NCBI GenBank assembly: GCA_013811765.1
Contig: JACCUO010000011.1
Coordinates: 1 to 17,309 of the forward strand
Direction: 5' to 3'
DNA from: Thermoleophilaceae bacterium
Lineage (GTDB): Bacteria; Actinomycetota; Thermoleophilia; Solirubrobacterales; Thermoleophilaceae
DNA length: 17,309 nt
Positions 2,692 through 16,645 of this stretch are shown piece by piece. The translations under genes were made by a program, and so were the position numbers. Under the pieces are notes generated by a model, which saw only the letters and a program-made list of their open reading frames with translations, searched no databases and was not told the DNA's origin. Each line of letters opens with the position of its first letter. Within the stretch, counting starts at the first letter, position 1.

Positions 2692-2697
2692 TGTCGG

Positions 2698-2703
2698 CTC
2701 CTT
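2698..2703 (-). promoter_or_regulatory. Shine-Dalgarno of trxA
   Basis: AAGGAG on the minus strand, six bases before the GTG at 2691. It is one of only two clear ribosome binding sites in the window and fixes the trxA start. Confidence 0.75.
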
Positions 2704-2727
2704 GTCGCGAGGGTCAATGCTTCATAA

Positions 2728-2733
2728 AGTATA
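2728..2733 (-). promoter_or_regulatory. Candidate −10 of the trxA-tautomerase unit
   Basis: TATACT on the minus strand lies in the 128-base gap between trxA and the upstream mannosyltransferase gene. A start site about 7 bases downstream would leave a leader of roughly 29 bases carrying the Shine-Dalgarno. No good −35 hexamer is seen 17 bases upstream. Confidence 0.4.
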
Positions 2734-2819: not shown

Positions 2820-3536
2820 TCAGCGCACGCGAAAGCGCAGGCCCGGCACCTTCCAGAAGGCCTCGACGGCGATGCGCGCCGACATCTTGGACGCGCCGAC
2901 GCGCCGGTCGCGGAAGAGGATCGGTACCTCGAGCACGCGGAACCCGGCGCGGATCGCGCGGTAGGTCATCTCGATCTGAAAGCCGTAGCCGTCGGTTCCG
3001 ACAGACCGGAGATCAAGGGCCTCGAGGACCTCCCGGCGGAAGCACTTGAACCCGCCCGTGAGGTCGTGAACCGGGACCCCGAGGACGATCCGAGCGTATA
3101 GGGAGCCGCCGCGACTGATGAGCCGTCGCGTCTTCCCCCAGTCGGTTACACCGCCGCCCTTCACGTACCGGGAGCCCAGGACCAGGTCGGCGTCGGCGGC
3201 GGCTGACACGAGCCGGGGGAGATCCATCGGGTCGTGCGAGAAGTCGGAGTCCATCTCGAGCAGCAGCTCCGCACCGGCGCCGAGCGCGTAGGAGAAGCCC
3301 GCCAGGTAGGCAGGGCCGATCCCCTCCTTGCGCTTGCGGTGAAGCACCTGCACCTCGTCGAGCTCCGCCGCGAGGCGATCGGCGATCTCCCCTGTGCCGT
3401 CGGGCGAGCCGTCGTCCACCACGAGGATCTGGTGAGCCAGGCCCGTGGAGGCGAGCTCCGGGAGCGCAGCCCGGACGATGGCCTCGATGTTCTCGGCCTC
3501 GTTGTAGGTGGGTAGCACGAGCCAGGCGCCGGACAT
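2820..3536 (-). CDS. Polyprenol-phosphate mannosyltransferase (Ppm1/DPM1-like, GT2)
   Basis: This 238-residue family-2 glycosyltransferase is predicted to transfer mannose from GDP-mannose to polyprenyl phosphate on the cytoplasmic face of the membrane, supplying lipid-linked mannose for envelope glycans or protein O-mannosylation. Visible motifs are PTYNEAENI (residues 9-17), DDGSPDGT (41-48), the metal/nucleotide motif DSD at 96-98 followed by FSHDP, GSRYVKGGGV, LTGGFKCFRREVL, and the C-terminal GYGFQIEM and SKMS stretches typical of DPM1 and mycobacterial Ppm1. No transmembrane segments are present, so it is the soluble catalytic type without the Lnt-like domain fused in some actinobacteria. 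The ATG at 3536 overlaps the polX upstream region. A TAGGGT element ends 8 bases before it, implying a leaderless mRNA. Confidence 0.9.
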   Translation of the reverse strand: MSGAWLVLPTYNEAENIEAIVRAALPELASTGLAHQILVVDDGSPDGTGEIADRLAAELDEVQVLHRKRKEGIGPAYLAGFSYALGAGAELLLEMDSDFSHDPMDLPRLVSAAADADLVLGSRYVKGGGVTDWGKTRRLISRGGSLYARIVLGVPVHDLTGGFKCFRREVLEALDLRSVGTDGYGFQIEMTYRAIRAGFRVLEVPILFRDRRVGASKMSARIAVEAFWKVPGLRFRVR

Positions 3537-3543
3537 GGGCGCG

Positions 3544-3549
3544 TACCCT
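3544..3549 (+). promoter_or_regulatory. Leaderless −10 for polX (shared bidirectional element)
   Basis: TACCCT ends 9 bases before the TTG at 3559. The same base pairs, shifted by one, read TAGGGT on the other strand for the mannosyltransferase gene. No −35 hexamer is recognisable. Confidence 0.5.
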
Positions 3550-3550
3550 A
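3545..3550 (-). promoter_or_regulatory. Leaderless −10 for the mannosyltransferase gene
   Basis: TAGGGT on the minus strand ends 8 bases before the ATG at 3536, with no Shine-Dalgarno between. It overlaps five of the six bases of the polX −10. Confidence 0.55.
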
Positions 3551-3558
3551 GTCAGGGC

Positions 3559-5310
3559 TTGGCCAGAACCCTGAAGAACGCCGAGATCGCCGCCGCTTTC
3601 GAGGAGCTTGCGACTCTTTACGAGCTGGATGGCGCCGTGGTCTACCGCGTGCTCGCCTACCGCAACGCCGCGAAGTCGATTCGCGAGTCGGGCGTCTCGG
3701 TGGCCGACATGGCCGCGCAGGGGCGCGCCGAAGAGCTGGCCGGGATCGGCAGGACGATCGCAGAGAAGATCCAGGCGCTCGTCGAGACAGGCGGGATACC
3801 GGCGGCGGAGAAGCTCAAGGCCAAGATCCCGCCCGGCCTCGTGGAGATCACCCGGATCCCCGGGCTCGGGCCCAAGCGCACACGCCGGCTGCACAAGGAG
3901 CTGGGAATCGAATCGCTCGACGAGCTGCGCAAGGCAGCGGAGGAGGGGCGTATGCGCGCGGTGCCCGGCTTCGGCACGAAGGCCGAGGAGAACGTCCTGG
4001 CCGCGCTCGCCGCCGGGGCCGACACCCATGGGGGCGCAGGCGGCCCCCCGGGGTCCCGGACGCTGCTCTCTCACGCGCTCGCCCTCGGGCTCGAGTTGCT
4101 GGAGGGCCTGCGCGAGCACGAGGCGGCGCTCCGCGTGGAGCTCGCCGGCAGTGCGCGGCGGTGGGAGGAGACCTGCAAGGACCTCGACATCGTGGCGGCG
4201 GCGAGCGACCCCCGTGCCCTGGTGAAGGCCTTCACGCGCCTGCCGGCGATAGACGAGGTCACGACCTCGGGGGAGGCCGGCGCCAAGGCCATCACCCACC
4301 AGGGGCTTCCGGTGGACCTGCGGATCGTGCCCGAGCATTGCTTTGGCAACCTGCTTCAGCATTTCACCGGATCGGCACGGCACAACGAGGCCCTGCGCAC
4401 CGAGGCTGTCAAGCGCGGTCTCCACGTGAGTGAGTACGGGGTGACCGACGACTCCACCGGCCAGACGCACGCCTGCTCGAGCGAGGAGGAGGTCTACGAC
4501 CTGCTCGGCATGGCCTATGTGCCGCCGGAGCTGCGTGAGAACCGCGGTGAGCTCGCGGCGGCGCGCGAGGGCGCGCTTCCCGCGCTCGTGCGGATCGAGG
4601 ACGTCCGGGGCGATCTGCACTGTCATACCACCGCCTCCGACGGGCGCCAGTCGATCCGCCAGATGGCAGAGGCCGCGCGCGGTCGGGGCTACGAGTACCT
4701 GGCGATCACCGACCACTCAGCCACCCACGGCTTTGGCAACCACGTCTCTCCGGACGACCTGCGCCGGCAGATCGAGCGTGTGGCGGAGGTCGACGGCGAG
4801 CTCGGGGACCTCCGCGTCCTGGCCGGCAGCGAGGTCAACGTCCTTCCGGACGGCTCGCTCGACTATGAGGACGAGCTGCTGGCCGAGCTCGACTGGGTCG
4901 TGGCGAGCGTGCACACCTCCTTCGGGATGTCCGAGAGCGGGATGACCGAGCGCATGACGACCGCGATGGAACACCCCCTGGTGGACGTGATCGGGCACCC
5001 CACCGGACGGCTGATCGGCCGGCGGGAGGGCTATGAGCTCGACGTGGATCGCTTGATCGAGGTCGCCGCGCAGACAGGGACGTTTCTCGAGATCAACGCC
5101 AACCCCAACCGGCGCGACCTCTCCGACGTCTATGCCCGGGCCGCGGTGGCGGCCGGCGTGACCATCGTCATCGACTCCGACGCTCACGGGACGGAGACCC
5201 TGGCCAACATGCGTTACGGGATCGCCACGGCACGGCGTGCGTGGCTCACGCCGGCAAACGTGGCGAATACACGGTCTTGGGCGCAGCTCTGCAAGCTGCG
5301 CAAGCGCTGA
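3559..5310 (+). CDS. polX: DNA polymerase X family protein with PHP nuclease domain
   Basis: This 583-residue repair enzyme joins a polymerase-beta-like gap-filling domain to a C-terminal PHP phosphoesterase that in bacterial PolX gives 3'-5' exonuclease and AP-endonuclease activity. Residues 1-75 form the N-terminal 8-kDa-like helical domain. Helix-hairpin-helix motifs follow (ITRIPGLGPKR and AVPGFGTKAEENV). The nucleotidyltransferase core has GSARRWEETCKDLDIV with catalytic Asp208/Asp210 and a later VDLRIV Asp. The PHP domain begins at about residue 352 (DLHCHT) and keeps TDHSA, SEVN, VHTSF, GHPTGRL and DSDAH, so all metal-ligand motifs look intact. The TTG at 3559 is chosen because TACCCT ends 9 bases upstream and family members begin near KNAEIAAAF. 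An ATG at 3535 would overlap the divergent gene's start codon and lie upstream of this −10. Confidence 0.92.
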   Translation: MARTLKNAEIAAAFEELATLYELDGAVVYRVLAYRNAAKSIRESGVSVADMAAQGRAEELAGIGRTIAEKIQALVETGGIPAAEKLKAKIPPGLVEITRIPGLGPKRTRRLHKELGIESLDELRKAAEEGRMRAVPGFGTKAEENVLAALAAGADTHGGAGGPPGSRTLLSHALALGLELLEGLREHEAALRVELAGSARRWEETCKDLDIVAAASDPRALVKAFTRLPAIDEVTTSGEAGAKAITHQGLPVDLRIVPEHCFGNLLQHFTGSARHNEALRTEAVKRGLHVSEYGVTDDSTGQTHACSSEEEVYDLLGMAYVPPELRENRGELAAAREGALPALVRIEDVRGDLHCHTTASDGRQSIRQMAEAARGRGYEYLAITDHSATHGFGNHVSPDDLRRQIERVAEVDGELGDLRVLAGSEVNVLPDGSLDYEDELLAELDWVVASVHTSFGMSESGMTERMTTAMEHPLVDVIGHPTGRLIGRREGYELDVDRLIEVAAQTGTFLEINANPNRRDLSDVYARAAVAAGVTIVIDSDAHGTETLANMRYGIATARRAWLTPANVANTRSWAQLCKLRKR

Positions 5311-5340
5311 GCGGTTCCCGCCGGGGACGGCGGGCGCGCT
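5310..5340. terminator. Hairpin between convergent polX and membrane-protein genes
   Basis: CCCGCC (5317-5322) pairs with GGCGGG (5329-5334) around a six-base loop. An outer AGCG/CGCT pairing (5310-5313 with 5337-5340) reaches both stop codons. There is no U-tract on either strand, so it is only a candidate bidirectional terminator. Confidence 0.45.
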
Positions 5341-5872
5341 AGGAGGAGGGGGCGGTCACGCCGGGCACGGGCTCGACCTTGCGCAGCCCCGGGGTGCGCA
5401 GCAGCTTGGGCGCGCCGAACGGGGAGCTGCGGTCGAAGTAGAAGCGCGCCCCGTCGCGGTCCTCGATCGCCTGCACTCCGCCTGCCTGCTTTCGCCACGT
5501 GAGCGCGATCCCGATCGCATACCCGGCCGCGATCGCCGGCACCTGGGGGAACAGGAACGCCAGGGCACCCGAGACGATCGTCAACACCGCGAGGGGCCAC
5601 AGGCGGTTGAAGATGACCGCCCCGGGCTCTACCTCGGGAAGGGTGTTGGTGCTGCGCGCCCCCGCGAGGAGACGCGCGATCCCGGGGGTGGGAGCCATCC
5701 GCCGGCCGAGCCATAGCCCGGCGCCCGTGGCGAGCGCCCACCAGCCCACGGCGAGGAAGATCAACGTGGGGTTGTCGTCCGCGTTCGCGCCGGCGACCGC
5801 CGCGGTGGCCAGCGCCGTGGCGGCTCCCCCGAACAGCAGCACCGCTATGCGAAGGAAGTCCACGAACCTCAC
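5339..5872 (-). CDS. Predicted four-helix membrane protein of unknown function
   Basis: This 177-residue protein is not assigned to a family. Hydrophobic segments lie at about residues 8-30, 35-57, 91-110 and 112-128. They are followed by a soluble C-terminal tail of about 48 residues (GGVQAIEDRDGARFYFDRSSPFG...) that begins just after TWRKQ, the likely cytoplasmic boundary. The polar loop between helices 2 and 3 contains PGIARLLAGARSTNTLPEVEPGA. The GTG start overlaps the otsB-like stop (GTGA, four bases), a classic arrangement for translational coupling, so it is probably made with the phosphatase. No catalytic motif is visible and no function is proposed. Confidence 0.8.
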   Translation of the reverse strand: MRFVDFLRIAVLLFGGAATALATAAVAGANADDNPTLIFLAVGWWALATGAGLWLGRRMAPTPGIARLLAGARSTNTLPEVEPGAVIFNRLWPLAVLTIVSGALAFLFPQVPAIAAGYAIGIALTWRKQAGGVQAIEDRDGARFYFDRSSPFGAPKLLRTPGLRKVEPVPGVTAPSS

Positions 5873-6684
5873 GGCAGGAGTGCGGCCAGCACGTCCTCGA
5901 AGCCCGGCACGCCCTCGACCACCACATCGGCGCGTTCCACGATCGCGCGCGGCCCCTCGGCCGAGCGCACCCCCACGCGGACCCCGACGTCCAGGTCCCC
6001 GCTCTCGATAAGCGCATCGAGCGCGTCGAAGGCGTCGAGGTCGGTCACGTCATCGCCCCCGTATAGCGCGGAGCGCACGTCCGTCGATCTGACCATGGTG
6101 CTCACCGCCTGGCCCTTGTCGACCGGGACCGGCGGGCGGATCTCGAGCACCTTGCGTCCCCAGTGGATCTCGAACCCCTCGGCCTGGGCTTCCTGGGCCA
6201 CGTTCTGCAGCCACGTCTCGGCGGCGGCCTCGTCAGGGACGTCGCGCCAGTGAAACGCCTTGATCGGTCCCTTGTCCTCCAGGCGAAGGCGAAGCAGCTT
6301 CGCGTTGCGGTCGTTCTGCAGCTGCTGCTCCACGAAGCCGGCCACGCGGCCCTCCCAGCTCACGAACGCGTCCAGCAGCTGTGGTTGAGAGGCCCCGGCC
6401 TCCAGCAGCTCGGCCCCATGTGAGCCGATGTAGCCGATTCCCCCGACGCCCACGAGCCGCCGAGCCTCGTTGGCGGACCGCCCCGAGACGCACGCCACGC
6501 AGGCGTACCGGCGGCCCAGCCTGCTGAGCAGCAGCGAAACCTCCTCGCGCACACGCGACTCCTCGGGGCGCCCGACGATCGGCGTGAGGGTGCCGTCTAT
6601 GTCGCAGAAGACCGCACCTCGCTGGGGGTCCTGCGTAAGCGCGCAAAGGCTCTTCGCGAGGGTTTCAGCCGTTGGGGCAGACAC
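5869..6684 (-). CDS. otsB: Trehalose-6-phosphate phosphatase-like HAD hydrolase
   Basis: This 271-residue HAD-superfamily phosphatase is predicted to release trehalose from trehalose 6-phosphate, a compatible-solute pathway. HAD motif I is DIDGTLTP (nucleophile Asp28, acid/base Asp30), motif II is the SGR of VSGRS (68-70), a Lys candidate is in VPVDKG (Lys190), and motif IV is GGDDVTDLDAF (Asp211/212/215). The cap region carries GSHGAE and the EDKGPIKAFHWR and GRKVLEIRPP stretches typical of OtsB. The synthase OtsA is not in the window, so the substrate is inferred from family motifs alone. The start is GTG at 6684, with CATACT ending 7 bases upstream and no Shine-Dalgarno. The gene overlaps the following membrane-protein gene by four bases. 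Confidence 0.88.
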   Translation of the reverse strand: MSAPTAETLAKSLCALTQDPQRGAVFCDIDGTLTPIVGRPEESRVREEVSLLLSRLGRRYACVACVSGRSANEARRLVGVGGIGYIGSHGAELLEAGASQPQLLDAFVSWEGRVAGFVEQQLQNDRNAKLLRLRLEDKGPIKAFHWRDVPDEAAAETWLQNVAQEAQAEGFEIHWGRKVLEIRPPVPVDKGQAVSTMVRSTDVRSALYGGDDVTDLDAFDALDALIESGDLDVGVRVGVRSAEGPRAIVERADVVVEGVPGFEDVLAALLP

Positions 6685-6690
6685 CCCCCG

Positions 6691-6696
6691 TAGTAT
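6691..6696 (+). promoter_or_regulatory. Leaderless −10 for the TauE/SafE genes (bidirectional element)
   Basis: TAGTAT ends 8 bases before the ATG at 6705. Read on the other strand one base over it gives CATACT for otsB. There is no −35 hexamer or Shine-Dalgarno. Confidence 0.6.
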
Positions 6697-6697
6697 G
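6692..6697 (-). promoter_or_regulatory. Leaderless −10 for otsB
   Basis: CATACT on the minus strand ends 7 bases before the GTG at 6684. It shares five base pairs with the divergent TAGTAT. Confidence 0.5.
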
Positions 6698-6704
6698 CCT
6701 CGCG

Positions 6705-7061
6705 ATGTCGTCCAGGCTGGCCCGGCTCGCCGTGATCGCGACAGTGGCGGGCGCTTTCAGCGGCCTCTTCGGCGTGGGCGGCGGGACCATCATCGTGCCG
6801 CTGTTGATCCTCTGGCTGGGCTACGAAGAGCGCGAGGCCACCGGTACATCGCTCGCCGCAATCGTGGGAATCGCCGCGCTCGGCGCGGCCGCACATGGCG
6901 CGTACGGCAACGTGCATGTGGAGGAAGCTCTGCTTATCGCCCTGCCGGGCGCGGCCGGGGTCGTGGCGGGCACTGCGCTCCAGCAGCGCATTCCCGAGCG
7001 GGCGGTCTCCGGCGTCTTCTCCGTGGTCCTCGTGGCGTCGGCCGTCGCCCTGGTGCTCTGA
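6705..7061 (+). CDS. Half-length TauE/SafE-family membrane protein, first half
   Basis: This 118-residue, very hydrophobic protein has about four transmembrane segments and the family signature GLFGVGGGTIIVPLL near residues 20-34. GTSLAAIV, GAYGNVHVEEA and VAGTALQQRIP follow. Full TauE/SafE (DUF81) permeases are about 250 residues and contain this unit twice; here each copy is a separate gene. Family members export or import sulfonates, sulfite and other organic anions, but the substrate cannot be read from sequence. The ATG at 6705 is preferred because TAGTAT ends 8 bases upstream. The stop shares a base with the ATG of the next gene (TGATG), so the halves are probably translated together and assembled as a heterodimer (inference). 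Confidence 0.85.
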   Translation: MSSRLARLAVIATVAGAFSGLFGVGGGTIIVPLLILWLGYEEREATGTSLAAIVGIAALGAAAHGAYGNVHVEEALLIALPGAAGVVAGTALQQRIPERAVSGVFSVVLVASAVALVL

Positions 7062-7474
7062 TGGAGGCCGCCGAGCTCGCCGGACTGATTGGGGTCGGGC
7101 TGGCTGCGGGCCTCGCCGGAGGGCTGATCGGCGTGGGTGGCGGAGTGCTCTTCGTCCCCGGCCTCGTCTTGTTCCTCTCGCTTGGTCAACTGGACGCCCA
7201 GGCCACCTCCCTGCTGGCCGTCGTGCTCGTGGGCGCGGTCGGCGCATGGCGCCAGGCGGGCTACGGCAATCTGCGGCTACGCGACGGGATCGTCATCGGG
7301 GTGCTTTCGCCACTCGGCGTGCTGGCGGGCACGGCCACTGCGAACGTCGTGAGCGAACGGTCGCTGGCGCTGTCGTTCGCGGCGGTGCAGCTCTTCTTCG
7401 CCTACAGGCTCGCTCGAAGGGCAATCGAGGACAAAGGGAAAGCGGATGCACCATCGGGCGTTGCGAACGGGTAG
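7061..7474 (+). CDS. Half-length TauE/SafE-family membrane protein, second half
   Basis: This 137-residue protein is a paralogue of its upstream neighbour: GLIGVGGGVLFVPGL aligns with the first-half signature, ATSLLAVV with GTSLAAIV, AGYGNLRLRDG with GAYGNVHVEEA, and LAGTATANVVSERSL with VAGTALQQRIPERAV. About four transmembrane helices are predicted, ending in a basic, charged tail (RLARRAIEDKGKA). The ATG lies inside the preceding stop (TGATG), implying termination-reinitiation. The −10 of the STAS gene (7472-7477) overlaps its final codon. Neither half shows frameshift debris, and the second has its own start codon and intact reading frame, so this looks like a genuine split rather than a broken gene. 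Confidence 0.83.
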   Translation: MEAAELAGLIGVGLAAGLAGGLIGVGGGVLFVPGLVLFLSLGQLDAQATSLLAVVLVGAVGAWRQAGYGNLRLRDGIVIGVLSPLGVLAGTATANVVSERSLALSFAAVQLFFAYRLARRAIEDKGKADAPSGVANG

Positions 7475-7477
7475 ATT
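7472..7477 (+). promoter_or_regulatory. Leaderless −10 for the STAS gene
   Basis: TAGATT overlaps the stop of the TauE/SafE second half and ends exactly 7 bases before the GTG at 7485. Confidence 0.6.
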
Positions 7478-7484
7478 CGGCCCG

Positions 7485-7841
7485 GTGACTATTCTCGAAC
7501 TGGAGACGCGGCAACGCGAGGGGCTGGTGCAGGTGGTCCTCCGAGGAGAGCTCGACCTGTCCACGGTCGAGAAGGTCGAACAGGAGCTCCGCCGCCTCGA
7601 GGGGCAGGGGGAGAAGTTGCTCGTACTCGATCTCGCCGAGCTGTCCTTCCTGGACTCGACCGGCCTGCGGTTGATGGTCACCGCCGACCAGCGCGCGCGC
7701 CAGGAGGGGCGCCGGCTCGCCATCGTAAAGGGGCCCGCAAGCGTCCACCGCGTGTTCACGATCACGAAGCTCGACGAGCAGCTCGACATGGTGGACGACG
7801 TCACGGAGCTCACAGTCCCTGAGCTCAGGGACCTGAGCTGA
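7485..7841 (+). CDS. STAS-domain anti-sigma-factor antagonist
   Basis: This 118-residue single STAS domain resembles SpoIIAA/RsbV. Such proteins, when unphosphorylated, bind an RsbW-type anti-sigma kinase and free its sigma factor. The β-strand [22 protein letters not shown] and the phospho-acceptor loop FLDSTGL are present, with Ser58 in the conserved D-S-T-G position. The C-terminal half ([25 protein letters not shown]) also matches the family. The GTG at 7485 is chosen over an upstream ATG because TAGATT ends 7 bases before it and the STAS fold starts at once (MTILELE). A sigma factor gene follows within 25 bases, but no kinase gene is in the window, so the partner kinase must be elsewhere or absent. 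Confidence 0.9.
7815..7832. promoter_or_regulatory. Perfect 18-bp palindrome upstream of the sigma gene
   Basis: GTCCCTGAGCTCAGGGAC is a perfect 9+9 inverted repeat in the last codons of the STAS gene. It covers part of the position where a −35 element for the sigma promoter would sit (about 7829-7834). CCTGAGCT recurs at 7832-7839, giving a third half-site in direct repeat with 7818-7825. It is a candidate operator. Confidence 0.45.
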
Positions 7842-7851
7842 CACGTAGGCG

Positions 7852-7857
7852 TACCCT
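7852..7857 (+). promoter_or_regulatory. Leaderless −10 for the sigma factor gene
   Basis: TACCCT ends 7 bases before the GTG at 7865, with no Shine-Dalgarno. The hexamer is identical to the polX −10. Confidence 0.6.
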
Positions 7858-7864
7858 TGGTGCC

Positions 7865-8920
7865 GTGACGGTGGACATCACCACGCGCCCCGAGCTCCAG
7901 GCCCTGACCCTCCGGGGAGAGCAGAACGGCTGCATCAACCTCTCCGAGCTCGCCGAGCAGGCGCATGCGCTCGAGCTCGCAGACGAGGAGCTGGAGACAC
8001 TTCACGAGCGGATCGAGGCGCGCGGCATCGCCCTGACCGACGACTGCGGGCGAACCGACGTGGTCACCACGACCTACAGACCCGACGACCTGGCCGGGAC
8101 CACAACCGATGCGCTCCAGCTATTCCTGAACGAGCTGCGTCGCTACCCGCTGCTGAGCGCGGCGGAGGAGATCGAGCTGGCCAAGCGGATCGAACAGGGC
8201 GACCTCGAGGCCAAGGAGAAGATGATCCACTCGAACCTGCGGCTGGTGGTCTCGATCGCCAAGAAGTACCAGGGGCATGAGCTCTCGCTGCTCGACCTGA
8301 TCCAGGAGGGCATCTTCGGCCTGATCCGCGCGGCGGAGAAGTTCGACCATCGCAAGGGGTTCAAGTTCTCGACCTATGCCACGTTCTGGGTCCGTCAGGC
8401 GATCCAGCGCGGGTCGGCGAACAAGGCGCGCACGATCCGCATCCCTGTCCACATCGGCCAGCGCGAGCGCAAGATCGCGCGCGCCGAGCGCGAGCTTGGC
8501 GCGCGCCTCGGGCACGAGCCCACGGACGCCGAGATCGCCGCGGAGGCCGAGCTCCCCACCGAGCAGGTCGAGGAGGTGCGGGCGGCCGCCCGCACCGTGA
8601 CGAGCCTCGACCGCGCGGTCGGCGACGATGGGGACACGTCGTTTGGTGACCTGCTTCCCAGCGACGAGCCCCCGCTCGAGGAGGAGATCGAGGTCAGCCT
8701 CGCCAAGGAGGCCCTGCGACGCACCGTTGCCGACCTGCCAGAGCCGGAGCGAAACGTGATCAAGCTTCGCTACGGGATCGACGGTGGCGAGCCAAACCCG
8801 CTGCGCGAGACGGGCCGCCGCCTCGGCCTATCCGCCGAGCGCGTGCGTCAGATCGAATCCCGAGCGCTCAGGCGGCTCGCCACCCGGCGCGAGATAGACG
8901 CGCTACGGGACGCCGCTTAG
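7865..8920 (+). CDS. RNA polymerase sigma-70 factor, RpoD-like
   Basis: This 351-residue sigma factor directs RNA polymerase to promoters. Residues 21-60 resemble a short region 1.1 ([20 protein letters not shown]). Region 1.2 is [17 protein letters not shown] (82-98). Regions 2.1-2.4 run about 110-195 and include [18 protein letters not shown] and [18 protein letters not shown]. Region 3 includes [13 protein letters not shown]. Region 4 ends with the helix-turn-helix [26 protein letters not shown]. In region 2.4 the housekeeping YATWWIRQAITR pattern is [12 protein letters not shown], changing the position equivalent to E. coli Thr440 to Gln. It may therefore be a group 2 (RpoD-related, non-essential) factor rather than the principal sigma. 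The GTG start follows TACCCT by 7 bases. Confidence 0.93.
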
Positions 8921-8937
8921 CTTCGGGCGCGGCGGGG

Positions 8938-8943
8938 TACGCG
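8938..8943 (+). promoter_or_regulatory. Weak leaderless −10 candidate for the Usp-like gene
   Basis: TACGCG ends 6 bases before the ATG at 8950. The last position is G rather than the T of the other elements. The gene could instead be read through from the sigma gene. Confidence 0.3.
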
Positions 8944-8949
8944 ACCATC

Positions 8950-9363
8950 ATGAAAAAGAAGATCCTCGTTCTGGTCTCTGAGCCTATCTCTGGCGATGTC
9001 CTCAAGGAGGTCGTGGGCGGCGAGGAGGCCGAGGAGGCCGAGGTGCTGGTCGTGGCGCCCGCGCTGAACGAGAGCAAGGTGCGTTTCTGGGCCTCGGACC
9101 CGGACGGCTCGATCGAGCAAGCGGAGGACGTCGCTCAAGAGACGGTCGAGCGGCTGGACGAGGCTGGGGTAGACGCCGCCGGGGGCGCGGGCGAGTCAGA
9201 ACCGCTACTCGCCCTTCAGGATGCGCTGGCCACCTTCGACGCGGAAGAGATCGTGCTCTGCACGCGGCTCGGTGGCGAGCTCAACTGGCTCGAGGAGGGT
9301 CTCGTTGAGGAGGTCAAGGCGCGTTTTCCCGATCGCTCCGTCAGCCACCGCGAGATCGACTGA
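8950..9363 (+). CDS. Small universal-stress-protein-like protein
   Basis: This acidic 137-residue protein has alternating β-strands and helices like a compact UspA fold: KKILVLVSEP (strand 1), AEVLVVAPAL (strand 2), a helix with IEQAEDVAQETVERLDEAG, then PLLALQDALATFDAEEIVLCTR, and a final helix/strand LVEEVKARFPDRSVSH. The ATP-binding Usp signature (G-2x-G-9x-G-S/T) is not visible, so nucleotide binding is doubtful. The region 30-70 is rich in Glu and Ala. It sits 29 bases after the sigma gene on the same strand. The role is unknown; the fold assignment is an inference from pattern only. Confidence 0.7.
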   Translation: MKKKILVLVSEPISGDVLKEVVGGEEAEEAEVLVVAPALNESKVRFWASDPDGSIEQAEDVAQETVERLDEAGVDAAGGAGESEPLLALQDALATFDAEEIVLCTRLGGELNWLEEGLVEEVKARFPDRSVSHREID

Positions 9364-9375
9364 GCGGTAGCTCAG
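9360..9375. terminator. Perfect hairpin over both stop codons at a convergent junction
   Basis: CTGAGC (9360-9365) pairs perfectly with GCTCAG (9370-9375) around the loop GGTA. The TGA stops of the Usp-like gene (9361-9363) and of the amidohydrolase gene (9372-9374 on the minus strand) both lie in the stem. There is no U-tract. It is a candidate compact bidirectional terminator. Confidence 0.4.
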
Positions 9376-10538: not shown

Positions 10539-10544
10539 GAGACC

Positions 10545-10550
10545 AGCGTA
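10545..10550 (-). promoter_or_regulatory. Leaderless −10 for the amidohydrolase gene
   Basis: TACGCT on the minus strand ends 6 bases before the GTG at 10538. No Shine-Dalgarno is present. Confidence 0.5.
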
Positions 10551-10585
10551 CCCAGCGCGGCACGATCAGCCGCAGGCGGCCGCGC

Positions 10586-10591
10586 CATACT
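10586..10591 (+). promoter_or_regulatory. Leaderless −10 for the epimerase gene
   Basis: CATACT ends 7 bases before the ATG at 10599. The hexamer is identical to the otsB −10. Confidence 0.55.
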
Positions 10592-10598
10592 CACGGCG

Positions 10599-11471
10599 AT
10601 GGTGGAGCTCACCGCCGGCGAGCTGCAGGCCACGTTCGCCCCCGAGGTCGGGATGGTGGGCTGTTCACTGCGCCACCGCGGGGAGGAGCTGCTCGCCCAG
10701 CAGGGCGGCCTCGCCCAGTACGAGCGCAGCGGCTCGACCTTCGGCATCCCGCTGCTGCATCCGTGGGCCAACCGGCTCGGGGGCATGCGCTATGGGCAGG
10801 TAGAGCTCGACCCGGACCGCTCGCCGATCCGGCTGGACGAGCACGGCCTTCCGATTCACGGGCTCCTGAGCGCTTCCCCGCACTGGGAGGTGCTCTCCCG
10901 GCACGGCACCGGGTTCTCTGCCCGGTTTGCGTTTGACCGCCCCGAGCTGCTCCGCGCCTTCCCCTACCCGCACGAGCTCGACGTGGAGGTGACCCTCACG
11001 GCCACGGCCCTCGGGGTGAGCACGACGCTGCGTGCGGCAGGGGTCCTCCCGGTGCCCGTGTCGTTCGGCTATCACCCGTATCTCACCCTGCCAGGGGTGG
11101 CGCGCGAGGAGTGGTGGGTCGAGATGCCCGTGACCGAGCGGGCGGTGCTCGATGGGCAGGGGATACCCACTGGCGCCACCGACCCCGTGGCGCTCGAGCC
11201 GAGCCCGCTCGGGGAGCAGACCTTCGACGACCTGTTCCTTGACATACCGCTCGGCACTCGCTTTGCGCTCGCGGGTGGGGGGCGGCGGATCGAGGTGGTC
11301 TTCGAGGAGGGCTACCCGCTCGCCCAGGTGTTTGCGCCCGAAGGCCAGGACTTCATCTGCTTTGAGCCGATGACTGCGCCGACCAACGCCCTCGTAACCG
11401 GGGATGGTTTGCGCCGGGTCTCGCCGGGGGCTGAGTTCACCGCCGGCTTCTCCATAGCAGTGTCTGGCTGA
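10599..11471 (+). CDS. Aldose 1-epimerase-like protein
   Basis: This 290-residue galactose-mutarotase-superfamily protein is predicted to interconvert anomers of a free or phosphorylated sugar in the cytoplasm. The key positions are visible: WANRL (Asn58/Arg59), the HGLL histidine (His87), the catalytic acid candidate in SFGYHPYL (His159), and the catalytic base Glu256 in CFEPMTAPTNAL. The length is close to the family norm. Motifs fit the broad GalM/YeaD-like superfamily, so glucose-6-phosphate 1-epimerase or another sugar specificity cannot be excluded. The ATG at 10599 is preferred because CATACT ends 7 bases upstream and the domain starts at once (MVELTAGELQATFAPEVG). It converges on selC. 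Confidence 0.87.
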   Translation: MVELTAGELQATFAPEVGMVGCSLRHRGEELLAQQGGLAQYERSGSTFGIPLLHPWANRLGGMRYGQVELDPDRSPIRLDEHGLPIHGLLSASPHWEVLSRHGTGFSARFAFDRPELLRAFPYPHELDVEVTLTATALGVSTTLRAAGVLPVPVSFGYHPYLTLPGVAREEWWVEMPVTERAVLDGQGIPTGATDPVALEPSPLGEQTFDDLFLDIPLGTRFALAGGGRRIEVVFEEGYPLAQVFAPEGQDFICFEPMTAPTNALVTGDGLRRVSPGAEFTAGFSIAVSG

Positions 11472-11473
11472 CG

Positions 11474-11502
11474 CGTGGGTCGGCCACGGCGTCCCACCCA
11501 CG
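11474..11502. terminator. Hairpin between the epimerase gene and selC
   Basis: CGTGGGT (11474-11480) pairs with ACCCACG (11496-11502) across a 15-base loop. The right arm touches the 3' end of the tRNA gene, and there is no U-tract. It is a weak candidate for a terminator or a 3'-trailer structure. Confidence 0.3.
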
Positions 11503-11593
11503 GAGCGGCGAAGGAATCGAACCTTCCAAGCGGGGGGCTGCCCCGCCCCAACGGCTTTGAAGGCCGCGCGGGCCACCAGACCCCTGCCGCTCC
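11501..11593 (-). tRNA. selC: tRNA-Sec (anticodon UCA)
   Basis: This selenocysteine tRNA decodes UGA together with SelB. Read 5'-3' on the minus strand it has an 8-bp acceptor stem (GGAGCGGC with GCCGCTCC), one pair longer than normal tRNAs. The anticodon loop CTTCAAA has anticodon TCA at 11560-11558, on a stem CGGC/GCCG. A long variable arm (GCGGGG/CCCCGC) precedes a T arm GAAGG-TTCGATT-CCTTC. The 8+5 acceptor-T stack is the bacterial tRNA-Sec hallmark. G73 is present; CCA is not encoded. It lies 46 bases downstream of the HD-domain gene with its own −10. Its presence implies selA, selB and selD elsewhere; none is in this window. Confidence 0.93.
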
Positions 11594-11600
11594 GATGGCG

Positions 11601-11606
11601 ATGCTA
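11601..11606 (-). promoter_or_regulatory. −10 element placing selC transcription at tRNA base 1
   Basis: TAGCAT on the minus strand ends exactly 7 bases before G1 of the tRNA (11593). The spacing is the same as in the leaderless mRNAs of this window, so the transcript would begin at or within a base or two of the mature 5' end. Confidence 0.5.
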
Positions 11607-11639
11607 GTGGCCCGTCCTCCATGGAGAGAGCCGGCAACC

Positions 11640-12533
11640 TCAACCAGGCAATCCGTGCTCGAGCGCTCCCTTCACCGCGGCGTCGACGGCGTTCAGCCGG
11701 TAGAGCGCCAGCGCCTCGGGTGACCGGAAGCGCCTGCCGGGCAGCGCGTCGGCCCCGTGGTGGCCGAGGATGCAGTGCGAGAGCGCCAGGAGCTTGTCCC
11801 GCGGGAAGCTTTCCAACCGGGAAACACGGTCGGTCACCAGCTGCTGGCCGAGCGCCAGATGGCCGAGCATCGCCCCCTCGTCGCTCAGCGCGATCTCAGC
11901 CCCGAGGGCGAACTCGCGCGTCTTCCCGGCGTCATGCAGGATCGCCGCCGTGATCAGGAGGTCTGAGTTCAGACGCGGATGAAGCGCGCACGCCTCGAGC
12001 GCCAGGGTGGCCACGGCGACCGTGTGCTCGAGCAGCCCGCCGAGATAGGCGTGATGCCCTCCGCGCGTGCAGGGCGCACCCCGCAGCGCTGCACGGAAGT
12101 CGGAGTCGGCCAGGAAGGAATCGAGCAGCCGCCTGAAGTCCGCGTCGTAGACCTCGCGTGACAGGTGTTCGAGGAAGCCGTCGAGCTCCTCCATGTCCCG
12201 GTAGGCGGCCGGGAGGAACTCGGCCGGATCAAGGCCGTCCTCCTCGGCGCGGCGGATCTCCCGCACGTCCACCTGCAGCTCGTCGCGATAGCGCTCGACC
12301 ACTCCGGTGACCCGCACGAGGTCGCCACGCTCGAACTGCCCGGCCAGGAAGTCGGCGTTACGGAAAGCGCGCCCAGGGATGGCCCCGCTGCGGTCGCGCA
12401 GCTCGAGCGCGAGGTAGGCCGAGCCGCTGCGGGCCGTCAGCCGGTCCTTGCGCGAGCACGCGAAGACCCCGTCCACCTCGCCGCCGGCGCGCAACTCGGC
12501 CACGGTCGTGCGCTGGAAGGTCGTGCTGTCCAC
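11640..12533 (-). CDS. YhaM-like OB-fold/HD-domain 3'-5' exoribonuclease
   Basis: This 297-residue protein has two domains. Residues 1-95 form an OB-fold nucleic-acid-binding domain (ALELRDRSGAIPGRAF...GDLVRVTGVVERYRDELQVDV). Residues 155-290 form an HD phosphohydrolase domain with GGHHAYLGGLLEHTVAVATL (His170), AILHDAGKTREF (His200-Asp201), CILGHHG and the distal Asp284 in RLNAVDAAVKG. This architecture and these motifs match the YhaM/CbfA family of 3'-5' exoribonucleases, which need a divalent metal (Mn or Co in studied cases). The start is GTG at 12533. Upstream TACCAA only weakly resembles a −10, and no Shine-Dalgarno is clear, so the start is less certain than for its neighbours. It is divergent from the PAC2 gene. 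Confidence 0.85.
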   Translation of the reverse strand: MDSTTFQRTTVAELRAGGEVDGVFACSRKDRLTARSGSAYLALELRDRSGAIPGRAFRNADFLAGQFERGDLVRVTGVVERYRDELQVDVREIRRAEEDGLDPAEFLPAAYRDMEELDGFLEHLSREVYDADFRRLLDSFLADSDFRAALRGAPCTRGGHHAYLGGLLEHTVAVATLALEACALHPRLNSDLLITAAILHDAGKTREFALGAEIALSDEGAMLGHLALGQQLVTDRVSRLESFPRDKLLALSHCILGHHGADALPGRRFRSPEALALYRLNAVDAAVKGALEHGLPG

Positions 12534-12576
12534 GAGCTCATCTTGGTAGCCCGGCCGGACTGATGGCGCGCTCCTA

Positions 12577-12582
12577 TACCGT
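12577..12582 (+). promoter_or_regulatory. Leaderless −10 for the PAC2 gene
   Basis: TACCGT ends exactly 7 bases before the in-frame GTG at 12590. It lies inside the longer reading frame that starts with ATG at 12563, so it argues for the shorter protein. Confidence 0.5.
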
Positions 12583-12589
12583 GAGGGAG

Positions 12590-13465
12590 GTGAGCGACCT
12601 TGTGTGGAGTGAGCGTCCGACCCTGCGCCGTCCGGTGATGGTCGCGGCGTTCCATGGCTGGAACGACGCGGGCGATGCAGCCTCGGCGGCCATCGACTTC
12701 ATTCGCGCCCAGCACGAGCCGGCCGAGGTGGCCAGGATCGACCCCGAGGAGTTCATCGACTTCACGGCGGTGCGCCCCACGATCAAGCTGGTCGACGGCC
12801 GCACGCGGGAGATCGACTGGCCAGACACCGTCCTGTCCGCAACGAAGGTGCCTGGCGCGGAGGGCGACCTCGTGATCCTCCAGGGAGTCGAGCCGGCGCT
12901 GCGCTGGCGGCGCTATAGCCAGGCCATCGTGGAGGCGGCAAGGGAGCTCGACGTGCGGATGGTCATCACGCTCGGCGCCCTGCTGGCAGACGTGCCGCAC
13001 ACGCGGCCGGTATCGGTCACGGGCATCGCCTCGGAGGCCTCGCTGGTGGATCGGCTCGGGTTCGAGGCCACGAGCTACGAGGGCCCCACCGGCATCACCG
13101 GCGTCCTGCACCACGCCTGTGCGGCGGCTGGTCTGCCGTCGGTGAGCCTGTGGGCCTCCGTGCCTCACTACGTGGCCGCGGCGCCGAACCCGAAGGTCGC
13201 GCTCGCGCTCGTGCGGGCCTTCGAAGGGGCTGCCGGGGTGATGATCGACGCGGCCGAGCTCGAATCCGCCGCGGAGGACTACGAGCGGCAGGTCAGCGCC
13301 GCCGTGGCCACCGACCCGGAGGTGACGGCCTTCGTGGAAAGGCTGGAGTCCGCGATGGATGAGGCAAGCGATGGGCAGCCGCCTGAGAACCTGCCCTCCG
13401 CGGACATGATCGCGCGGGACTTCCAGCGCTTCCTTCGTCAGCGCGGGCCCGGCGAGGAGCCCTAG
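12590..13465 (+). CDS. PAC2-family protein (proteasome-assembly-chaperone-like)
   Basis: This protein of about 291 residues belongs to the PAC2 (PF09754) family, widespread in actinobacteria and archaea and distantly related to eukaryotic proteasome-assembly chaperones. Its bacterial role is not established. The N-terminal signature RRPVMVAAFHGWNDAGDAASAA is clear, followed by LVILQGVEPALRWRRYSQAIVEAAR, MVITLGALLADVPHTRPVSVTG and GPTGITGVLHHACAAAGLPSVSLWASVPHYVA. The C-terminal part (SAAEDYERQVSAAVATDPEVTAFVERLE) is helical, probably coiled coil. The GTG at 12590 (MSDLVWSERP) is preferred over ATG 12563 because TACCGT ends 7 bases before it; either is possible. It converges on the helicase-nuclease gene with 17 bases between stops. 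Confidence 0.88.
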   Translation: MSDLVWSERPTLRRPVMVAAFHGWNDAGDAASAAIDFIRAQHEPAEVARIDPEEFIDFTAVRPTIKLVDGRTREIDWPDTVLSATKVPGAEGDLVILQGVEPALRWRRYSQAIVEAARELDVRMVITLGALLADVPHTRPVSVTGIASEASLVDRLGFEATSYEGPTGITGVLHHACAAAGLPSVSLWASVPHYVAAAPNPKVALALVRAFEGAAGVMIDAAELESAAEDYERQVSAAVATDPEVTAFVERLESAMDEASDGQPPENLPSADMIARDFQRFLRQRGPGEEP

Positions 13466-13482
13466 CGGACAGGACTGGCGGT

Positions 13483-16400
13483 CTACTTCTCTGCCGCGGG
13501 GCAGATGATCCGGTAGTCGCAGAAGGGGCAGATCTCAGGAGATGGCGTCGGCTGGAAGTCCTGACGCATGATGCCGTCCCCGATCGCGGCGATCGTGGCG
13601 CGCACCCTCTCCAGCTGCTCCTCGGAGTGCTCGACCGGCACCTTCTCCCCGGTCATCACGTAGAAGTAGCTCTGGGCGGAGGTCTCGAGCCCCCACGACT
13701 CCCGCGCCCCCATCTGGTAGACCGAGAGCTGCACGTCCTCTCGCAGCTGCTGCTCGGTTCTGGCCTTGCCGGTCTTGTAGTCGATCAGCTCGTAGCTGCC
13801 GTCCACCCGGCGGTCCACCCGATCCACCCTCCCGCGCACCAGGTGCGCTCCGAGCCGGAACGAGAAGCCACGCTCGAACCAGACCGGCTCGCTCTCCTCG
13901 TCACGCACTCGCTCCCAGTAGCGCTCGAGCGCGTCCAGGGCACGCTCGCGGAACTGCAGCTCGTCGTCGGTCTCGCCGAACCCGGAGCGCCGCCAGGAGA
14001 GCTCGAAGAGGTCGAACAGCTCCTGCCGGGTGCCACCGGTGTGCTGGTGGAAGCGCTCGAGGACCTGATGCAGGGCAATACCGAAGCGCTGGTTGATCGT
14101 CGGCTCCTGGGGGATCCTGAAGACCCGCGCGAACTTGTACTTGAGCGGGCAGATCCGGTAGGTCTCGATGTCCGACGCCGAGAGCATCAGCCCGTCCCCG
14201 CGGCGGGGGATGAAGGGGTCGAGCGATGGCTCGGAGCCGGCCGCCCCCGATGCCGGCCGCCGCTCGGGGTCCCGCCCGGCGTCGCGCAGCCAGCCGTCCA
14301 ACGCCGAGGCGGCCAGGATCTCCCGCTGCTCCGGCGTCGCGCCCTGGGCGAGCAGCTGGTTCACCTCTTCGATCGCCTCGTCGAGCGCCTGACCGGTCTT
14401 CGAGCGTTCGATCACGGCGGCCACCTTGACGAGCTCGAGGAAGCTCGCCACCGCGCTCGACACGTCCACCGCGGTGTCGAGACGCATCTCACCGAGCCGA
14501 CCACCCACCCGTGCGACCGTGTCCAGCAGCTCGTCGCGCATGATCCGGAAGGTCGAGTGAAGGCCCTCGGCGGCCCCGAAGAGCTCCTCCTCGACCGCCT
14601 CCTCGTCAGTGCCCGTGGCAGCGCATGCCTCCGCCACGAAAGGCGAGGGCCGCTCCGGTCCTCCGTCCGCGGCCTCGCCCTCGGCCCAGGCGAGCACGAG
14701 CCCCTCGCGAGCCCTCGTCATGGCCACGTGAAGCAGGCGGCGCATCCGGGGCTCCGCGAAGCCGGCGGCGGGAAGGCGCTCCTTCAAGAGCGCGTCGGGC
14801 ACTCCGTCGGCCGCTGTGCCCTGCTCGCCGGGGGCCATCCGCGCGGCCGAGACCCCCAGGACGAAGACATGGTCGAACTCGCAGCCCTTGAGATCGTGGG
14901 CGCCCATCACGCGCACGGAGGGTGTGAGAAGCGGGGAATCAGCCTCCGCCTCGGGAAGCCGGGAGTCGGCGATCGCCTTCAGGTAGCGCGCGAAGTCGCG
15001 TGGCGTGGCCTGGGGTTCGCGTCGCATGAACGCCGTCGCCAGCTCCGGCAGCCGCGCTATGTTGCGCAGGCGCTCGACGGTGTCGGCCTGCGTGGCGAAG
15101 ACCTGCTGGCGGCGTATTCCCACCCGCTCGATCAAACGCAGCACGAACGCGTCCGGCCTGCGGTTTTCGAAGGCTCCCAACGCGGCGCGGTAGAGGCGGA
15201 GGAAGGCCTGCGCGCGGTCGCGGCCCTCCGGGGACAGCTGTGGCCCGTCGAGCGCGGCCGCCACCGCCGCCGGAATGTCCAGCTTGCGCCGCCGGGCGAG
15301 CTGCGTGAGACGCGCGATGTCTACCGAGTGCAGGGCCACGGGAGGGCGCGAGAGCGCCCGCACGGCCGCGCCCGAGTCACCCGGATCGGCGAGCAGCCGA
15401 AGCCAGGCCAGCACGTCGCGCACCTCAGCGCGTGCGAAGAACGCCCCCGAGCCCGTGAGCCTGAAGGGCACCGCGCGCTCCTCCAGCGCGGCGCCTACCG
15501 CGGTGCCGTCGTCCTTGACCGACTGCACCACCACGCCGATCCCGTCGGGAGCCACTCCCGCGGAGATGAGCCGATCGACCTCCGCCGCCACCGCCTGCGC
15601 CTGTGCCCGCTCGGAGGCACAGCGCCAGAAGCGGACCTCGCCCCCCTCCCGGGCGGAGAGGCCTCCGTCGCCCTTCCCGTCGAGGACCGCAGCTGCCACG
15701 GCGAGAATTCGCCGGCGGCAGCGGCGACTCTCCTCGAGCCGCACCATCTCAGCTTCCGGAAACGCCTCCCGGAAGTCATGGAGGTTCTTCTCCGAGGCGC
15801 CGCGGAAGCGGTCGATGGACTGCCGCGGGTCGCCCGCCACGGTGATCTGCCGCCCTCTCTCGCAGAGCAGCGCAAGCACCATGCCCTGGGCGAAGCTGGT
15901 GTCGTGGTGTTCGTCGACCAGCACGTGGCGAAAGCGGCTCGTCACCCGCTCGCGCACCTGTGGCTTCTCGTGCAACAACCTGAACGTGCGCAGCAGGAGA
16001 TCCCCGAAGTCGAGCGCCCCTCGCTCGGACAGGAGCCGCTCGTGATCTGCGTACACGCCCGCGAACTCGAGCTCGCGGGCCCGCCGGGCTCGCTGCGCGT
16101 CGTCGGCTTCGTGCGCTTCGGCCGCCCCCTGCTCGACGTGTGACTGGAGCTCCGGCGGGGAGATCATCTCTTCCTTCAGCATGTCGATACGCGACACGAA
16201 GCTCGCGAGGAGTGGCGCCGGGTTCCCGCGGATCTCGTGGTGGCGCAGCTGCAGTTCGTCGATCCGGTCAAGGAGCAGCGCCACCCGGTCGGCGGGCGTG
16301 ACAGGCACGAACGCTGGGTCGAGCCCCGCCTCGAGCGCCTCGTCGCGGAGGAGACGGGCGCATAACGAGCGGAAGGTGCCCGAGTGAAGCTCCTCGTAGG

Positions 16401-16632
16401 GCGGGTCCACCAGCTCTTCGAGCGCCTGGCGCATTCGGTTGGCAGCTTGCGGCGAGAAGGAGATCGCCAGCACCGACTCGGCCTCCACTCCCTGCTCGAC
16501 GAGCCACCCGAACCGCCGCGTGAGCACGTGCGTCTTGCCCGTGCCCGCCCCCCCCACCACCATCAGCGGTCCCTCGGGGTGCGTGACCGCTGCGAGCTGC
16601 GAGCGGGTCAGACCGTCGATGGAGCTCGGCAC
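13483..16632 (-). CDS. UvrD-type helicase fused to RecB-like Fe-S nuclease (AdnA/AdnB-like)
   Basis: This 1,049-residue protein combines an SF1A helicase with a PD-(D/E)XK nuclease, the architecture of the AdnA and AdnB subunits that process double-strand breaks in actinobacteria. Helicase motifs are Q/I GPLMVVGGAGTGKT (about residues 22-34), motif II LVDEHHDTS (DEHHD where DExQD is usual), motif III VAGDPRQSIDRFRGA, motif V GAHDLKGCEFDHVF and motif VI LLHVAMTRARE. The nuclease begins at about residue 815: SASDIETYRICPLKYKF (first cluster Cys), GIALHQVLERF, GRVDRVDR, ELIDYKTGKA (Asp-x-Lys) and DVQLSVYQ. It ends with CPFCDYRIIC, completing a four-Cys Fe-S site. The GTG at 16632 is preferred over ATG 16641, since TACCAT ends 7 bases before it. 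No second Adn subunit gene is adjacent within the window. Confidence 0.9.
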   Translation of the reverse strand: MPSSIDGLTRSQLAAVTHPEGPLMVVGGAGTGKTHVLTRRFGWLVEQGVEAESVLAISFSPQAANRMRQALEELVDPPYEELHSGTFRSLCARLLRDEALEAGLDPAFVPVTPADRVALLLDRIDELQLRHHEIRGNPAPLLASFVSRIDMLKEEMISPPELQSHVEQGAAEAHEADDAQRARRARELEFAGVYADHERLLSERGALDFGDLLLRTFRLLHEKPQVRERVTSRFRHVLVDEHHDTSFAQGMVLALLCERGRQITVAGDPRQSIDRFRGASEKNLHDFREAFPEAEMVRLEESRRCRRRILAVAAAVLDGKGDGGLSAREGGEVRFWRCASERAQAQAVAAEVDRLISAGVAPDGIGVVVQSVKDDGTAVGAALEERAVPFRLTGSGAFFARAEVRDVLAWLRLLADPGDSGAAVRALSRPPVALHSVDIARLTQLARRRKLDIPAAVAAALDGPQLSPEGRDRAQAFLRLYRAALGAFENRRPDAFVLRLIERVGIRRQQVFATQADTVERLRNIARLPELATAFMRREPQATPRDFARYLKAIADSRLPEAEADSPLLTPSVRVMGAHDLKGCEFDHVFVLGVSAARMAPGEQGTAADGVPDALLKERLPAAGFAEPRMRRLLHVAMTRAREGLVLAWAEGEAADGGPERPSPFVAEACAATGTDEEAVEEELFGAAEGLHSTFRIMRDELLDTVARVGGRLGEMRLDTAVDVSSAVASFLELVKVAAVIERSKTGQALDEAIEEVNQLLAQGATPEQREILAASALDGWLRDAGRDPERRPASGAAGSEPSLDPFIPRRGDGLMLSASDIETYRICPLKYKFARVFRIPQEPTINQRFGIALHQVLERFHQHTGGTRQELFDLFELSWRRSGFGETDDELQFRERALDALERYWERVRDEESEPVWFERGFSFRLGAHLVRGRVDRVDRRVDGSYELIDYKTGKARTEQQLREDVQLSVYQMGARESWGLETSAQSYFYVMTGEKVPVEHSEEQLERVRATIAAIGDGIMRQDFQPTPSPEICPFCDYRIICPAAEK

Positions 16633-16639
16633 CCCGCCC

Positions 16640-16645
16640 ATGGTA
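16640..16645 (-). promoter_or_regulatory. Leaderless −10 for the helicase-nuclease gene
   Basis: TACCAT on the minus strand ends exactly 7 bases before the GTG at 16632, and itself contains the first two bases of the alternative ATG at 16641. Confidence 0.5.

Follow-up and report, generated by a model that had tools for sequence, protein, structure and literature searches.

Ten genes in the 17,309-nucleotide stretch of Thermoleophilaceae DNA analysed here (the window; contig C116 of a 1.53-Mb source genome in 332 contigs, 68.6% complete) carry a TAnnnT-like hexamer shortly before the start codon. A preliminary description of the window took these hexamers for −10 elements of leaderless transcripts and proposed that leaderless initiation is the default in this lineage. 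The locus raises the question of what the hexamers do and how many genes of the lineage depend on them. We consider it highly probable that TAnnnT is a −10 element, that the start codon lies at or near the transcription start, and that the tightest divergent gene pairs share one such element.

Hexamers and start codons in the window

All ten hexamers and their spacings read as had been described: eight are TAnnnT and two CATACT, and they end 6–9 bases before the start. In G002, a relative of the same genus whose proteins are 51–91% identical to those of the window, all ten sites retain the hexamer, exactly or in a closely similar form, while the flanks change. The signal, its position, its statistics and its conservation at the cases examined were computed. 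Genes were called with a codon model of our own, and their starts were sorted by an EM mixture of leaderless-type, Shine-Dalgarno (SD) and ‘none’ classes, in which the start model favours the motif. This mixture learned TAnnnT at 6–10 bases and a separate GGAG-type motif; the former, learned independently, equals the published TAnnnT −10. Window genes were scored with a start model trained without their own genome, and the resulting leaderless-type probabilities are given below in brackets.

The first candidate −10 hexamers lie between divergent genes. TAGGGT (3545–3550, minus strand) stands 8 bases before ATG 3536 of the mannosyltransferase gene (0.89), and TACCCT (3544–3549, plus strand) 9 bases before TTG 3559 of polX (0.37). 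CATACT (6692–6697, minus strand) precedes GTG 6684 of otsB by 7 bases (0.66), and TAGTAT (6691–6696, plus strand) precedes ATG 6705 of the TauE gene by 8 (0.96). On the plus strand, the STAS gene (0.98) has TAGATT (7472–7477) 7 bases before its GTG start (7485), and the sigma factor gene (0.98) has TACCCT (7852–7857) 7 bases before its GTG start (7865); both hexamers are kept in G002, TACCCT at 6 bases. The amidohydrolase hexamer TACGCT (10545–10550, minus strand; 6 bases before GTG 10538; 0.98) is likewise kept in G002, which by eye soon diverges from the window upstream of the box. The aldose epimerase gene starts at ATG 10599, 7 bases after the −10-like CATACT (10586–10591, plus strand), which becomes AATACT in G002; the gene caller missed this gene, which therefore has no model score. 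TACCGT (12577–12582, plus strand) precedes GTG 12590 of the PAC2 gene by 7 bases (0.69), and in G002 an identical hexamer precedes an ATG. The UvrD-type helicase gene has TACCAT (16640–16645, minus strand) 7 bases before GTG 16632 (0.94), replaced in G002 by TACACT at 10 bases. Outside these ten, a possible −10, CAAGAT (12540–12545, minus strand), lies 6 bases before GTG 12533 of an HD-domain gene (0.76); CCAAGAT is kept in G002, as judged by eye. Pfam matches in the window comprise family 2 glycosyltransferase, PolX-type polymerase, trehalose phosphatase, TauE, STAS, sigma-70, amidohydrolase, PAC2, UvrD-type helicase and aldose epimerase.

The starts chosen previously for polX, STAS, PAC2 and helicase sit inside longer open reading frames. 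Comparison with G002 bears out the internal starts of STAS, PAC2 and helicase, and the upstream ATG of PAC2 and that of helicase are both missing from G002; longest-ORF starts would be wrong for all three. For polX the evidence is mixed: G003 and G004 carry GTG at the place that matches TTG 3559, but the model favours another start, ATG 3535 (probability 0.42), and is undecided on whether polX is leaderless-type. The reported lack of SD sequences agrees with an SD posterior of at most 0.03 for the confidently modelled leaderless-type genes, a group that excludes polX (0.25) and the unscored epimerase gene.

Near-uniform use of the hexamer, as first described, holds for the transcript-leading genes of the window but not for every gene. 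The gene usp is classed as ‘none’ (0.69), and three more genes, with starts at 2354, 5872 and 7061, fall mostly in the same class. As had been noted, trxA is SD-led (SD 0.97), with AAGGAG (2698–2703, minus strand) 6 bases before GTG 2691. Farther upstream is TATACT (2728–2733), and both elements are kept in G002. The trxA leader (2692–2733, minus strand) has the same order in the window and in G002, namely TATACT, ATG or GTG followed by AAG-CAT-TGA, and AAGGAG. Its middle part could be a tiny upstream open reading frame.

Several other features of the window deserve mention. TauE (6705–7471, plus strand) is divided between two neighbouring half-length genes whose order is swapped: positions 129–236 of the Pfam TauE family are matched by the first and positions 1–113 by the second. 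Two conserved genes have no Pfam match at E 1e-5: one at 5872 (minus strand) encodes a 177-amino-acid protein and overlaps the end of otsB, and one at 8950 (plus strand) encodes a 137-amino-acid protein after the sigma factor. A selenocysteine tRNA gene lies at 11501–11593 (minus strand; Rfam tRNA-Sec 68.2 bits; ARAGORN anticodon tca), which suggests selenoprotein synthesis in the lineage.

Positional signal and frequency of leaderless-type genes

Of the 15 window genes that were called, 8 have a strict TAnnnT 6–9 bases before a candidate start; when the flanks were shuffled by mononucleotide, the mean was 0.55 and the maximum 4, and 0 of 1000 shuffles reached 8. All 15 have a closed 5′ end, and candidate starts had to be in frame and no more than 45 nt away from the coding-based start; the epimerase gene (uncalled) and ileS (cut at the window edge) are not among the 15, and otsB and epimerase are not strict hits because of their CATACT. 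Four of the ten starts were placed inside longer reading frames, and a pattern produced by chance might profit from such freedom. The shuffles, however, enjoyed equal freedom in choosing starts, relatives back the starts, and the signal, found across the genome, is missing from a control of similar GC content. Chance can be set aside with near certainty.

The genome-wide enrichment that the preliminary description anticipated is present, as a peak 6–10 bases before starts with a mode of 7. In the window’s own genome, TAnnnT occurs at spacing 7 before 8.1% of 246 ATG and 8.0% of 300 GTG candidate starts, values that are inflated because most of the own contigs were chosen partly by TAnnnT-N7-RTG matches. 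Outside spacings 6–10, it occurs at no more than 1.2% at any spacing, and before internal ATG or GTG codons at no more than 0.2%. In an unbiased set of own contigs taken in numerical order (C1–C20 and C200–C221, except C206 and C215, taken earlier), TAnnnT stands at spacings 6–10 before 20.0% of 80 genes, against 3.8% at control spacings. The peak appears in all Thermoleophilia-type sets and is missing before the starts of a high-GC, SD-led Azospirillum control. Raw counts of the pattern in the own genome were dropped as evidence, since the reversed control is unmatched in composition: TAnnnT-N7-ATG gave 68 versus 29 reversed, and TAnnnT-N7-GTG 78 versus 123.

The claim that no −35 element can be recognised was upheld on a larger scale. 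Among 413 confident leaderless-type genes from five sets, in which the hexamer was selected by the model and the upstream bases were unscored, KL divergence is at most 0.03 bits at every position 5–40 upstream of the hexamer. The −35 window holds slightly more TTG (19 of 413) than five control windows do (11–15), and no excess of TTGAC (2 versus 1–2). As a start codon, TTG is rarer in leaderless-type genes (12/561 versus 35/811, p = 0.03). This scarcity fits a purine transcription start site, and TTG would accordingly be a poor start site at polX. Another feature of the hexamer flanks, the rarity of A directly after the hexamer, was considered as a sign of selection against two-way promoters and rejected in favour of a general avoidance of TA: the depletion is equal in intergenic TAnnnT not tied to starts (5/145 versus 12/342, p = 1.0) and is seen in all TAnnnT of the DNA.

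Confident leaderless-type genes have spacings from 6 to about 12 bases, with a sharp drop below 6. The upper part of this range would let some genes have leaders of a few bases, and one could suppose that the elements are genuine −10s from which transcription mostly begins several bases upstream of the codon. The mode of 7 and the sharp drop instead fit a start at the codon itself, 7 bp is the optimal distance from −10 to transcription start in the available text of PMC12825309, and an SD sequence would not fit into a leader only a few bases long. We regard mostly short-leadered transcripts as unlikely, and a start at or near the codon as the better account.

We estimated how common such starts are with fixed motifs, the only estimates that count, as freely refitted motifs also fit shuffled DNA at 15–45%. 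Genes were taken as transcript-leading if they had a divergent neighbour or a same-strand gap above 20 bp, so that operons were defined by strand and gap alone. On this basis, leaderless-type starts account for 52% of transcript-leading genes in the own contigs (n = 262, biased ones included), 40% in G002 (n = 248), 34% in G006 (n = 224), 54% in G028 (n = 252) and 44% in 28 named loci (n = 257). Across these five sets, 16–30% are SD-led and 21–42% ‘none’; shuffled upstream DNA yields 0–1.3% leaderless-type. The unbiased own contigs, a small set (n = 50), gave 41% leaderless-type, 36% SD and 23% none. Leaderless-type is the largest class in these contigs and in three of the five sets (own, G028 and named loci), and is slightly exceeded by ‘none’ in G002 (0.42 versus 0.40) and G006 (0.36 versus 0.34).

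Benchmarks over all genes, each from 150 kb of plasmid DNA that may not represent chromosomes, gave 0% leaderless-type and 92% SD for an Azospirillum replicon, and 14%, 24% and 42% leaderless-type for Streptomyces, Deinococcus and Miltoncostaea (class Thermoleophilia), respectively; the unbiased own contigs gave 32% (n = 81). A mixed Bacillota control (transcript-leading genes, 8% leaderless-type and 85% SD) says little about the leaderless class because it is AT-rich and its shuffles reach 37%.

Leaderless initiation as a default is thus partly borne out: it is the largest or nearly the largest transcript-leading class (34–54%), but it is not near-exclusive. To call SD-led genes the exception was an overstatement, with SD at 16–36% of transcript-leading genes. 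The 16S rRNA anti-SD end was found by exact pattern in four of seven relatives; the same pattern was not found in the own genome, which is itself incomplete (68.6%). Thermoleophilia are also tabulated with an anti-SD and, as the column reads in the part of PMC10783764 available, 45% SD use. Given the SD-led estimates, the anti-SD ends in relatives and this table, SD initiation is in ordinary use in the lineage.

Operon-internal genes are mostly SD-led or unclassified, and 9–15% are leaderless-type. This distribution bears on whether TAnnnT could be a translation signal on leadered mRNAs, for instance a contact for the ribosome or protein S1 near the start. The motif is tied to the start codon, and S1 binding has been proposed, in the text available of PMC5397173, as an alternative for AT-biased positions before non-SD starts. 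Operon-internal genes need translation signals equally, yet the motif is weak before them. Moreover, it is identical to the −10 consensus, experiments in Deinococcus show it working as a −10 (according to the accessible part of PMC12340547), and opposed boxes overlap at offsets given for bidirectional promoters in the consulted text of PMC12825309. We judge a translation signal quite improbable, more so than short leaders.

From these data we infer the function of the box as a −10, the positions of transcription starts, leaderless translation and, where boxes are shared, mutual exclusion. TAnnnT would be the −10 element that the housekeeping sigma factor recognises. RNA polymerase would be placed mainly by this element, with no fixed −35, and would begin on the A or G of ATG or GTG, or within a few bases of the start codon. 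Ribosomes carrying initiator tRNA would then read the leaderless mRNA directly. Roughly 35–55% of the lineage’s transcript-leading genes would be leaderless-type, the remainder being SD-led or unclassified.

Boxes shared by divergent genes

The preliminary description missed that the window holds two divergent pairs whose predicted boxes overlap, rather than two separate promoters in each. The mannosyltransferase and polX genes share the predicted −10 TACCCTA (3544–3550, both strands), which is identical in G002; otsB and TauE share TAGTATG (6691–6697, both strands), also kept in G002. The start codons are 22 bp apart in the first pair and 20 bp in the second, and the boxes in each are offset by one base.

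Such arrangements recur. Among 38 divergent pairs from the five sets with candidate starts 12–36 bp apart, 11 have two strict TAnnnT, each 6–10 bases from its own start, against a shuffled mean of 0.12 and maximum of 2. Nine of the 11 are independent, one L081/L138 pair and one own/G002 pair being orthologues, and otsB/TauE, with CATACT as its left box, does not count among the 11. The boxes in these pairs are offset by −1 (3 pairs), +4 (6), +7 (1) or +14 (1, in which they do not touch); only −1 applies to the two pairs of the window. With model-assigned starts, 12 of 64 pairs in which both genes are leaderless-type have overlapping or adjacent boxes. A histogram of divergent gaps, built on motif-aware starts, places 24 of 304 at 15–29 bp, with lower neighbouring 5-bp bins.

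Class-wide, the two-way box TAnnnTA occurs at 26 places in 21 of 149 genomes, versus 5 control places, and AnnnTAnnnT at 37 places in 35 of 149, versus 7. These counts used a fixed spacing, ATG on both sides and the pattern alone, with the pattern read backwards (which turns TA into AT) as control; they are supporting only, and some places are AT-rich and may be chance. Neither two-way ATG pattern was found in the own genome in this count. Four genomes of genus g61, from another family of the class (G057, G124, G130 and G159), share a near-identical AnnnTAnnnT between CAT and ATG, a possible second conserved shared promoter.

Both shared boxes of the window can be followed through its family. 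A match to otsB is present in 29 of 31 family genomes, and we compared the otsB/TauE junctions of the own genome, G002 and 20 of 27 others. TAGTATG with a left GTG at 6–8 bases and a right ATG or GTG at 7–10 bases is found in 19 of the 22; G011 and G006 have one base changed and no near right start, and G013 lacks the box. Of 399 class genomes, 14 contain the exact string CAC-N5-GTAGTATG-N6,7-RTG; the window’s family supplies 11 of these from 27 genomes, and the reversed control gave 0. A polX match is present in 30 of 31 family genomes. Its junction with the mannosyltransferase gene, compared in the own genome, G002 and 20 of 28 others, retains TAnnnTA in 17 of 22 (absent from G003, G010, G005, G001 and G011). 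The mannosyltransferase start lies 7–10 bases from this box in 16 of the 17, the piece of G004 ending short there; the polX start lies 6–11 bases away in 9, and elsewhere is farther off or behind other sequence. Because of these start distances, the mannosyltransferase side looks firmly leaderless-type, whereas the polX side varies. A similar family-wide comparison for the sigma factor gene was dropped, as starts extrapolated from protein matches were wrong in most of 17 loci, which leaves G002 as the comparison for that gene. By eye, L257 and L258 (from G004 and G003, two genomes of the window’s genus) contain repeated modules of about 25 bases directly before polX; in G004 these modules sit between the TACCCTA box and the polX start.

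A string of 8–10 bases kept for so long at otsB/TauE could also mark an operator, and the conserved boxes between divergent genes might be binding sites for a regulator instead of shared −10 elements. In different pairs, however, the middle bases differ, while the TAnnnT positions and the distances to the start codons on both sides are kept, as would be expected of a −10; we give regulator sites a small probability, similar to that of short leaders. That a single conserved −10 would serve two leaderless genes is well supported by these comparisons. In the tightest divergent pairs, a pseudo-symmetric −10 (TAnnnTA, or AnnnTAnnnT with a shared TA) would be used in either orientation, so that a box of 7–10 bp serves two leaderless genes, with one polymerase at a time.

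It is tempting to go further and propose that Thermoleophilia regularly use compact, conserved two-way leaderless promoters, a proposal we hold slightly more probable than its opposite. Each would comprise a −10 of 7–10 bp between start codons 16–28 bp apart, each codon being its own transcription start. Because neither a −35 nor an operator would fit outside coding sequence, the two genes would be locked into competition for one polymerase. Some of these boxes, such as that of otsB/TauE, would have outlasted the divergence of genera.

Comparison with known systems

Since leaderless-type starts rival SD-led ones, SD models alone are an unsafe basis for calling gene starts in Thermoleophilia. 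With start codons as markers of the expected transcription starts, such promoters can be sought from sequence alone. In the shared boxes, the choice of direction by polymerase, and the question whether exclusion couples two mRNAs, could be studied in a minimal and conserved setting.

Both TAnnnT-led leaderless genes in Actinobacteria and the symmetry of bidirectional −10 elements are already published. By title and beginning of abstract, we found no bacterial paper combining leaderless starts with a shared bidirectional −10, in a search that mostly lay outside subscription papers and leaves absence unproven. The words Conexibacter, Rubrobacter, Thermoleophil- and divergent are absent from the main text of PMC3160421, divergent and bidirectional from that of PMC12340547, and leaderless from the text available of PMC12825309.

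Zheng et al. 2011 (PMC3160421, as available in part) reported TAnnnT about 10 bp before the start. Of 89 actinobacterial genomes, 86 have leaderless genes in that study, with a share of about 20% of genes in Actinobacteria and about 40% in Deinococcus-Thermus, and operon-distal genes are mostly SD-led. The genes described here resemble those TA-led genes in carrying TAnnnT before the start and in being mostly first genes (34–54% versus 9–15%). They differ from the actinobacterial value of about 20%, as all-gene shares here are 32% (unbiased own contigs) and 42% (Miltoncostaea plasmid), although the methods differ. In Deinococcus-Thermus, TANNNT just before open reading frames acts experimentally as the −10 for leaderless genes, according to the portion available of PMC12340547; motif and placement are the same, in another phylum. 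Mycobacterium tuberculosis, from another actinobacterial class, has extensive leaderless mRNAs with mapped transcription starts (PMC3898074, partial text), and the Thermoleophilia set, predicted here from sequence, would resemble it in this respect. Thermoleophilia would join the lineages in which leaderless-type starts rival or outnumber SD-led ones among transcript-leading genes.

The Grainger group described bidirectional promoters in which a pseudo-symmetric −10 is read on both strands (PMC12825309, PMC10268837), with transcription starts most often 18 bp apart and 10 and 23 bp also common, in the parts of these papers available to us. By our own arithmetic, an overlap at offset −1 would put two starts, each 7 bases away from its box, 18 bp apart, and offset +4 would put them 23 bp apart; these are the two commonest offsets among the predicted opposed −10s described here. 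Unlike the published bidirectional promoters, the candidates in Thermoleophilia have predicted transcription starts that coincide with start codons, which brings the two coding sequences within 16–28 bp of each other.
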